A stretch of 44,173 bases of DNA from Anaerolineaceae bacterium (GTDB lineage: Bacteria > Chloroflexota > Anaerolineae > Anaerolineales > Villigracilaceae), in the NCBI GenBank assembly GCA_009885525.1, contig VFKN01000033.1, positions 1-44,173 on the forward strand, in the 5' to 3' direction. Made by a program: the position numbers and the translations under genes. Positions 9,832 to 42,041 of the stretch are shown piece after piece. Position 1 is the first letter of the stretch. Every line of letters starts with the position of its first letter. Under the pieces are notes generated by a model. That model saw nothing but the letters and a program-made list of their open reading frames with translations, did not search any database and was not told the DNA's origin.

Positions 9832-11571
9832 TTGATCCAAAAAAATGAAGTTTTATTGAAGCATAACAACGAGTGGCTTTATTTCACAAACCCGCACCAT
9901 ATTATAAGCGCAGCAAAGGTGGAAGATGTACGCGGCGCGTTGCAGGCAGTGGAGAATCTCGTCAACGAAAAAAACTGGCACGCGGCAGGATTTGTCAGCT
10001 ATGAAGCCGCGCCTGCATTTGACAAGGCGCTGCGCGTCATTGAGGCAGAGAATTTTCCGCTGTTATGGTTTGGGTTGTATTCCGCGCCAAAGACCTCCGA
10101 GGTTTTTAAAAACCTCGGAGGTCTGCCGACATTAACCTGGCAGCCAGGCGTTGAGCGTGATGTGTACAACGCCGCAATTGAAAAAGTAAAAGAAAATATC
10201 GCGCTGGGAAAAACATATCAGGTCAATTACACCATGCGTTTGAATTCGGCATTTGAGATGGAGGCATGGGATTTATTCACTCACCTCGCGCAAGGCCAAA
10301 ACAAATATGCGGCATATCTCGACACAGGTCAATATGCAATCTGCTCCGCGTCGCCTGAATTATTTTTTTCATTGGACGGGGAAACAATCACAAGCCGCCC
10401 GATGAAGGGCACAGTCAAGCGCGGACGCACGACGCTGGAAGATAAAGAAAAAGCGGAATGGCTGCATCGCTCGATCAAAAACCGCGCCGAGAATGTGATG
10501 ATCGTGGATATGGTTCGCAACGATATTGGGCGCATCGCCGAGATCGGCAGCGTGCACGTACCTGAATTGTTTACCGTTGAAAAATATCCCACGCTTTTCC
10601 AAATGACATCCAGCGTGCAGGCGAAGACAAAAACCGGTATCACAGAAATATTCGACGCGCTGTTTCCGTGCGCATCCATTACGGGCGCGCCAAAAGTCAG
10701 CACCATGAAGATCATCGCAGAGTTGGAAACGACGCCGCGCAAAATTTACACGGGCAGTATCGGATACATCGCACCGAATCGTCAGGCGCAATTTAATGTG
10801 GCCATTCGCACCGCGATCATTGACCGGGAAAATAAAACCGCCGAATACGGAGTTGGCGGCGGCATCGTCTGGGACTCGACCAGCGCGGATGAATACAGCG
10901 AAGCCCTGCTCAAAGCGCGTGTGCTGACAGAATTTCCGCAAGAGTTTTCACTAATCGAAACTTTATTATGGACTACCAAAGATAAATATTTTCTGCGCGA
11001 GAAACACATTGCCCGAATGCAGGATTCCGCTGATTATTTTAATTTTCCATTTTCAAGGGAAAGATTTGAAACTCACCTCGAACAGCTGGCAAAAGATTTT
11101 AATTGCCCGCAAAGAGTGAGAGTTACGCTGGATAAATTTGGTGAGTTCAAAGCGCAAGTGACAGTCTACTCACAAGTGACTATCACCTCGTTAAAAGTTT
11201 GCCTTGCAGAAAAACCAGTCAACTCAAATAATGTATTTCTCTTTCACAAAACCACACAGCGCGGAATGTATCCATCCATCCAAGGCTATGATGATGTGCT
11301 TTTGTATAACGAAAATGACGAAATAACCGAATTCACTATTGGAAATGTGGTTGTTGAAATGGATGGCGCATTGTTTACTCCGCCCGTTTCATGCGGACTT
11401 TTGGCAGGCACATTCAGATCGCATTTATTGGAAACAGGCCAAATCAAAGAACGCATTATTTATAAAAACGAACTGGAACAATGCACAAAAATATTTTTGA
11501 TCAACTCGGTGCGAAAATGGGTGGATGTAAAGTTAAATACTTACCTTACGCACCCAAGCGTGATTCCCTGA
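9832..11571 (+). CDS. pabB-pabC: aminodeoxychorismate synthase component I fused to aminodeoxychorismate lyase
   Basis: Bifunctional enzyme for p-aminobenzoate, the folate precursor. The 579-residue protein has a PabB chorismate-binding domain (about 1-375), with the QVNYT motif, RPMKGT (Lys in the position typical of PabB rather than TrpE), MIVDMVRNDIGR and PCASITGAPK, then a PabC/class IV aminotransferase domain (about 380-570) with the PLP-lysine candidate in FLFHKTT and the EFTIGNVV segment. The start is a TTG behind GAGGAA; nearby ATG codons are out of frame. Two oddities: a 34-bp perfect palindrome is embedded in frame at residues 87-98, and the last residues run into a dispersed repeat, so the C-terminus (THPSVIP) is probably repeat-derived. 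Confidence 0.92.
   Translation: MIQKNEVLLKHNNEWLYFTNPHHIISAAKVEDVRGALQAVENLVNEKNWHAAGFVSYEAAPAFDKALRVIEAENFPLLWFGLYSAPKTSEVFKNLGGLPTLTWQPGVERDVYNAAIEKVKENIALGKTYQVNYTMRLNSAFEMEAWDLFTHLAQGQNKYAAYLDTGQYAICSASPELFFSLDGETITSRPMKGTVKRGRTTLEDKEKAEWLHRSIKNRAENVMIVDMVRNDIGRIAEIGSVHVPELFTVEKYPTLFQMTSSVQAKTKTGITEIFDALFPCASITGAPKVSTMKIIAELETTPRKIYTGSIGYIAPNRQAQFNVAIRTAIIDRENKTAEYGVGGGIVWDSTSADEYSEALLKARVLTEFPQEFSLIETLLWTTKDKYFLREKHIARMQDSADYFNFPFSRERFETHLEQLAKDFNCPQRVRVTLDKFGEFKAQVTVYSQVTITSLKVCLAEKPVNSNNVFLFHKTTQRGMYPSIQGYDDVLLYNENDEITEFTIGNVVVEMDGALFTPPVSCGLLAGTFRSHLLETGQIKERIIYKNELEQCTKIFLINSVRKWVDVKLNTYLTHPSVIP
10091..10124. repeat. 34-bp perfect palindrome inside pabBC
   Basis: The two 17-nt halves, beginning AGACCTCCGAGG and ending CCTCGGAGGTCT, are exact reverse complements with no spacer. 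It is read in frame as KTSEVFKNLGGL in a surface-linker part of PabB. The same core (CTCGGAGGTCT) forms the hairpin at 42007-42035. Confidence 0.85.
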
Positions 11572-42000: not shown

Positions 42001-42006
42001 TCCAGA

Positions 42007-42041
42007 AACTCGGAGGTCTTGAAGACCTCCGAGTTTTTTTA
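42007..42041 (+). terminator. intrinsic terminator derived from a dispersed palindrome
   Basis: Perfect 14-bp stem AACTCGGAGGTCTT / AAGACCTCCGAGTT with a single central base, followed by seven T. It ends the SET gene. The stem shares CTCGGAGGTCT with the palindrome in pabBC (10091-10124), so the two are probably related copies. Confidence 0.85.

Follow-up and report, generated by a model that had tools for sequence, protein, structure and literature searches.

A perfect palindrome translated within PabB as a probable member of a dispersed, REP- and RPE-like repeat family of Anaerolineae

The described systems closest to the palindrome reported here are the REP sequences and the Rickettsia palindromic elements (RPEs). 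REP sequences of the GTAG and CGTC families are palindromes of 20–40 bp, often present in 20–100 copies, that lie mainly downstream of genes or between convergent genes, with some copies intragenic; GTAG repeats are listed in Chloroflexi (PMC3733652). RPEs are palindromic repeats of ~150 bp that occur in frame in unrelated conserved genes, and those of R. conorii are described as CGTC-tagged (PMC10969869, PMC3733652). The SPRITE of Streptococcus pneumoniae is described as a dispersed element resembling a Rho-independent terminator, in a passage that speaks of no in-frame genic copies (PMC10969869). In the account given of Nematomorpha mitochondria, perfect inverted repeats are translated in conserved genes, some with the same midpoint in several species, and repeat conversion is proposed to keep their arms identical (PMC6649704). 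Literature searches on Chloroflexota palindromes and Anaerolineae terminators returned nothing relevant except PMC3733652.

The window, which is the whole stretch of 44,173 nucleotides analysed, contains at 10091–10124 the sequence AGACCTCCGAGGTTTTTAAAAACCTCGGAGGTCT, with half-arms AGACCTCCGAGGTTTTT and AAAAACCTCGGAGGTCT. The sequence is identical to its own reverse complement and, as the initial annotation had described, forms an uninterrupted 34-bp perfect palindrome in frame in PabB, within a 579-aa ORF. The features concerned are the following.

10091–10124, no strand assigned: perfect 34-bp palindromic element in coding sequence (self-complementarity, fold, covariance model R1 score, chance expectation)
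9832–11571, plus strand: host gene, a pabB-pabC fusion encoding aminodeoxychorismate synthase component I and an aminotransferase class IV domain (TIGR00553, PF00425, PF01063)
10090–10125, plus strand: linker codons AAG..CTG, residues 87–98 (homolog alignment; predicted loop from residue 90)
42004–42038, no strand assigned: intergenic family member with A-tract and T-tract arm ends (sequence, covariance model, context, T count, fold)

Perfect palindromes of 34 bp are expected by chance at 2.6e-6 per window and 2.4e-4 per genome. The stable RNA hairpin that had been claimed for the site is borne out by a predicted folding energy of about -27 kcal/mol (z -6 to -8), and covariance model R1 scores the copy at 50.5 bits (E 1.7e-13). 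The product of the host gene matches the PabB model TIGR00553 with 350 bits against a cut-off of 328, and its two Pfam matches, PF00425 and PF01063, reflect the fusion of PabB to an aminotransferase class IV domain. Together with its neighbouring bases the palindrome reads as KTSEVFKNLGGL (residues 87–98). In the AlphaFold model of the fusion protein, which has a mean pLDDT of 87.8, residues 90–103 carry neither helix nor strand, and residues 91–100 form the lowest-scoring block besides the C-terminal end (mean pLDDT 57); the palindrome-encoded segment is a loop in this model. Comparison of PabB homologs agrees with the earlier view that this linker is variable, and PabB of unrelated bacteria does not have the segment.

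The palindrome had also been suspected to belong to a genome-wide set, and other copies proved plentiful. In the draft genome that contains the window (4.1 Mb, 206 contigs), a strict inverted-pair pattern occurs at 7 places compared with 0 in a reversed control, and a search with R1, built from 28 aligned copies, gave 90 strand hits corresponding to about 48 places. The strict pattern is present in 38 of 61 relatives, with up to 19 places per genome, and by the same pattern related copies are distributed patchily over 76 of 396 genomes of the class Anaerolineae (up to 31 per genome). The element is about 34–53 bp long. Its arms are themselves near-palindromic, and the longer forms contain extra hairpins in the loop. 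The Rfam search of the window gave no match to a known RNA family. With a palindrome in the 20–40 bp class and many, mostly extragenic copies downstream of genes, the family resembles REP sequences; it differs from them in that the 28 aligned copies have no GTAG or CGTC end tag, starting and finishing instead with AGACC../..GGTCT, AAACC../..GGTTT or AAAAC../..GTTTT, in its near-palindromic arms and in the lack of a clear link to RAYT genes (see below). DNA uptake sequences number in the hundreds to thousands per genome, as short identical copies that frequently pair up as terminators. Assignment to this class was rejected because copies are too few: the 11-mer GACCTCCGAGG is found nine times and ACCTCSGAGGT at 15 places in the 4.1 Mb.

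Most copies are perfect hairpins with T-rich outer arms positioned directly 3' of stop codons. Among the 48 copies in the genome, 20 lie between convergent genes, 21 between tandem genes and three within genes, and 34 of the 45 non-genic copies are no more than 60 nt from a gene 3' end (gene calls came from ORF length and codon score in place of a full gene finder, and contexts were taken around the hits only; many of the genomes compared are drafts). Behind the 46 gene ends with an intergenic copy, the ten bases made up of the final four of the arm and the six that follow it contain on average 6.8 T. The T-rich outer arms with the A-tracts opposite them have the anatomy of bidirectional terminators, and their position behind stop codons suggests that these copies can end transcription from both sides; the SPRITE as described is likewise a dispersed repeat with terminator-like sequence. 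The initial annotation had placed a relative of the palindrome core at 42007–42035 and described it as acting as a terminator. A related copy does lie there, spanning 42004–42038 (GAGTTTTTTT); it is located 3 nt past a stop codon, ahead of a convergent gene, and consists of a G+C-rich hairpin followed by a U-tract, as expected for an intrinsic terminator, so that its anatomy stands as proposed and termination itself is a prediction. A consensus terminator scanner did not list the 42004 copy, probably because the T-tract belongs to the palindrome. At the 10091 copy the same ten positions read TCTGCCGACA, with 2 T of 10, and the hairpin is not followed by the U-tract of an intrinsic terminator.

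A minority of copies lies in frame within conserved genes, namely pabB, hemW, smc, metH, aconitase, a D-cysteine-desulfhydrase-like gene and a PD-(D/E)XK nuclease gene. Perfect palindromes are found in hemW of genomes G000, G029 and G032, in the smc hinge of G015, G029 and G032, in metH of G032, in aconitase of G015, in the desulfhydrase-like gene of G033 and in the nuclease gene of G000 and G015; a dihydroorotate-dehydrogenase-like ORF of G032 possibly holds a further in-frame copy. These copies are translated as TSEVxKTSEV or DLRGLxDLGGL, and in relatives that do not carry the element the corresponding linkers are shorter or of unrelated sequence. The hemW site carries the full palindrome in 18 of 21 congeners, a half-size form in one (L234) and none in two, and none of ten other genera has the palindrome. 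For metH, aconitase and the desulfhydrase-like gene, congeners have sites that are cleanly empty. The elements of pabB and smc replace a different linker of similar length with no net addition; an LPAP-type linker is what several congeners, and also some other phyla, have in pabB. In occurring in frame in unrelated conserved genes, with homologs that do not have the insert, and in being tolerated as extra peptide, the family resembles RPEs: filled and empty sites are both seen for hemW, metH, aconitase and the desulfhydrase-like gene, and pabB and smc have replaced linkers. Unlike RPEs, which span ~100–150 bp, the element measures 34–53 bp, is untagged and perfectly palindromic, mostly has terminator anatomy and occupies the same sites in different species with arms that covary. 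We therefore regard the element as a new REP/RPE-like family and a member of neither group, set apart from RPEs by length and description. The Nematomorpha repeats are mitochondrial, reach 284 bp and, in the account cited above, have no dispersed common sequence, whereas here a copied family resides in bacterial chromosomes.

Several host sites carry other repeats. In the smc hinge of some congeners (L259, L265 and L275) the unrelated perfect palindromes CGCAGGATGAAATCCTGCG, GCAAGATGTCATCTTGC and GAGCAAGATGCGATCTTGCTC stand where others have the family element, and aconitase of G016 (L293) has a different palindrome family, GACCCTAAAGGTCTCGGAGACCTTTAGGGTC, in frame at the site used by the present family in G015 and G032; the window's genome has intergenic copies of the GACCCTAAAGGTCTCGGAGACCTTTAGGGTC type as well (L153, L154). 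Direct tandem repeats (AAGTCTTACAAGTCT.. and GTAGACACGTATACAG..) take the place of palindromes in the pabB linker of L085 and L086 and in metH of L312. HemW of the window's genome (L225) has at about residues 250–272 a second extra peptide, KDEGKRMKDEFKNTSSLIPHPSSF, which is absent from HemW of G032 and has the look of a different repeat inserted in frame.

The loop motif GGGYGCTTCGC is shared, together with the family arms, by an smc copy (L258, G005), an intergenic copy (L174, G004) and a pabB copy (L090) that has the opposite orientation and comes from another genome. Unrelated places can have this loop in common only through copying of the element between them. A single origin of the pabB copies was rejected: in a pabB tree from which the linker columns were excluded, the element-bearing genes do not group, and holding them together gave an AU p of 0.0005, or 0.008 without L065 and L066, for a group picked after the data had been seen. 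The scattered distribution in pabB therefore requires repeated entry, exchange by local recombination, or repeated loss of the element. GTAG-type REP sequences flank a RAYT (Y1) transposase gene; within the genome, one of nine Y1 transposase genes has a copy within 1.5 kb, and searches for a transposition event, a target duplication or a mobilising enzyme found none. RAYT mobilisation was not adopted on the strength of this one weak association, in which the copy lies ~110 bp behind the domain match and is possibly just the terminator of that gene. A DUF559 nuclease was considered as mobiliser because metH of one congener, G033 (L313), contains an in-frame insertion of ~150 codons with a DUF559 (Vsr-like) endonuclease domain between CCCTCACCCC/CCCTCTCCC palindromic repeats; it was rejected, having no association with the element family. 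A DUF559 locus of G424 (L325) has two similar palindromes, TCTCCCCCAATTG..CAATTGGGGGAGA and CTCCCCCAAAATC..GATTTTGGGGGAG, ~500 bp apart, and a link between DUF559 and palindromes may exist for other repeat families.

The arms of copies at the same site change in compensated pairs. In hemW, 10 two-sided changes were counted compared with 2.7 in shuffles (0 of 500 reached 10) and at most 1 in slid controls, and fourfold-degenerate sites elsewhere in the gene are only 27–49% identical, which is near saturation. The pabB arms have 18 two-sided changes against 8.6 in shuffles. Two smc copies, L206 and L256, differ in four pairs, all compensated, in proteins that are 96% identical, and the nuclease copy of G000, GACCTGCGAG..CTCGCAGGTC, has a compensated pair relative to G015 that exchanges Gly for Ala. 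When the encoded peptide is recoded synonymously, the natural stem proves better than the recoded ones in 9 of 17 pabB rows (p below 0.02), and this also holds for most copies in hemW and smc. The hemW and smc phase sets third codon positions opposite one another, which allows silent compensation; in the pabB phase they lie opposite first positions and compensation alters residues, as in ACC..GGT to ACT..AGT (Gly to Ser), and these changes are therefore not codon-usage effects. The pabB peptide drifts alongside the palindrome (TSEV..GGL, TSEV..GSL, NFEV..GIL). Because the arm changes come in compensated pairs even with silent sites close to saturated, palindromy is renewed or maintained; this upkeep is not universal, roughly half of the pabB rows being degenerate. 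Selection on an RNA hairpin would give more G-U than A-C mismatches, and over all pabB, hemW and smc rows there are 32 G-U and 43 A-C, which, as a weak test, favours upkeep at the DNA level. In the still-palindromic pabB rows only, G-U exceeds A-C by 9 to 1, which would fit RNA-level selection there. In E. coli, template switching is an established route by which imperfect palindromes become perfect (PMC7202029), and the long-form loops that turn up at old sites count as support for replacement by sister copies.

A role of the pabBC mRNA hairpin in tuning the gene, by pausing or stopping RNA polymerase or ribosomes, as the initial annotation had suggested for transcription, would agree with its high stability, with the terminator-like form of related copies, with the compensated arm changes in pabB and hemW and with the G-U excess just described. 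The missing U-tract at 10091 speaks against such an attenuator, as does the recurrence of the same hairpin at unrelated positions of functionally unrelated housekeeping genes (in the middle of smc, within metH and aconitase, towards the end of hemW), in which a premature stop of transcription would do harm. The hairpin is also missing from pabB of several congeners, and over all genes G-U is not preferred. An effect on pabBC transcription is thus unsupported; we rejected it on the first two of these points and regard attenuation in general, pausing included, as improbable.

An old, vertically inherited element, conserved only as a useful protein linker with the palindrome as a by-product of TSEVxKTSEV, could account for the well-conserved peptide in hemW and smc, for a reading frame that is always kept and for the pairing of third codon positions in these two genes. 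Stems that exceed synonymous recodings, the near-saturated fourfold sites of hemW and a pabB peptide that itself drifts with the palindrome are difficult to reconcile with it and make it very improbable. We give least credence to an origin of the palindromes by local template switching at linkers with no dispersed element. In its favour, some congeners have different palindromes at the smc and aconitase sites, and local switching may apply to these unrelated palindromes, but local events cannot give the recurrence of the GACCTCSGAGGTC arms and of the GGGYGCTTCGC loop in unrelated genes and intergenic places.

The 10091 palindrome is thus probably one copy of a dispersed perfect-palindrome repeat of Anaerolineae that works like REP sequences and RPEs, and is best read as an REP/RPE-like repeat without GTAG or CGTC tags that is tolerated as a linker peptide. 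The family of about 48 copies would end transcription from both sides at its usual place behind stop codons. Its sequence has been copied around the genome, with a minority of copies in frame in conserved proteins, as shown by the empty sites in relatives and by the arms, and even the loop motif, that unrelated genes share. Insertions that kept the frame in exposed linkers would have survived and been translated as one of the two peptides, and in pabB the element would have taken the place of an LPAP-type linker. Palindromy would then be kept at the DNA level, either through correction of one arm by the other (quasipalindrome template switching) or through other copies taking the place of the resident one, with selection for an RNA attenuator the less favoured explanation. 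Points against this reading are the negative search for a transposition event, target duplication or mobilising enzyme, the linkers of similar length that were replaced in pabB and smc, the scattered distribution in pabB, the G-U excess in the palindromic pabB rows and the degenerate pabB rows. More tentatively, it is possible that translated palindromes last genus-long because such a process re-matches their arms, that this upkeep and not selection on the protein drives amino-acid change in linkers of housekeeping proteins, and that different palindrome families re-colonise the same linkers.

Earlier records of in-frame palindromic repeats came mainly from Rickettsia and from a small number of REP-rich genomes, and Chloroflexota can now be added. 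New here are the very small size of the element, its second character as a terminator-like repeat and the filling of the same genic sites in many species. The shared sites are natural replicates, each of which can be followed for insertion, choice of frame, loss and correction of the arms, and they make it testable whether conversion or function keeps translated palindromes in being.
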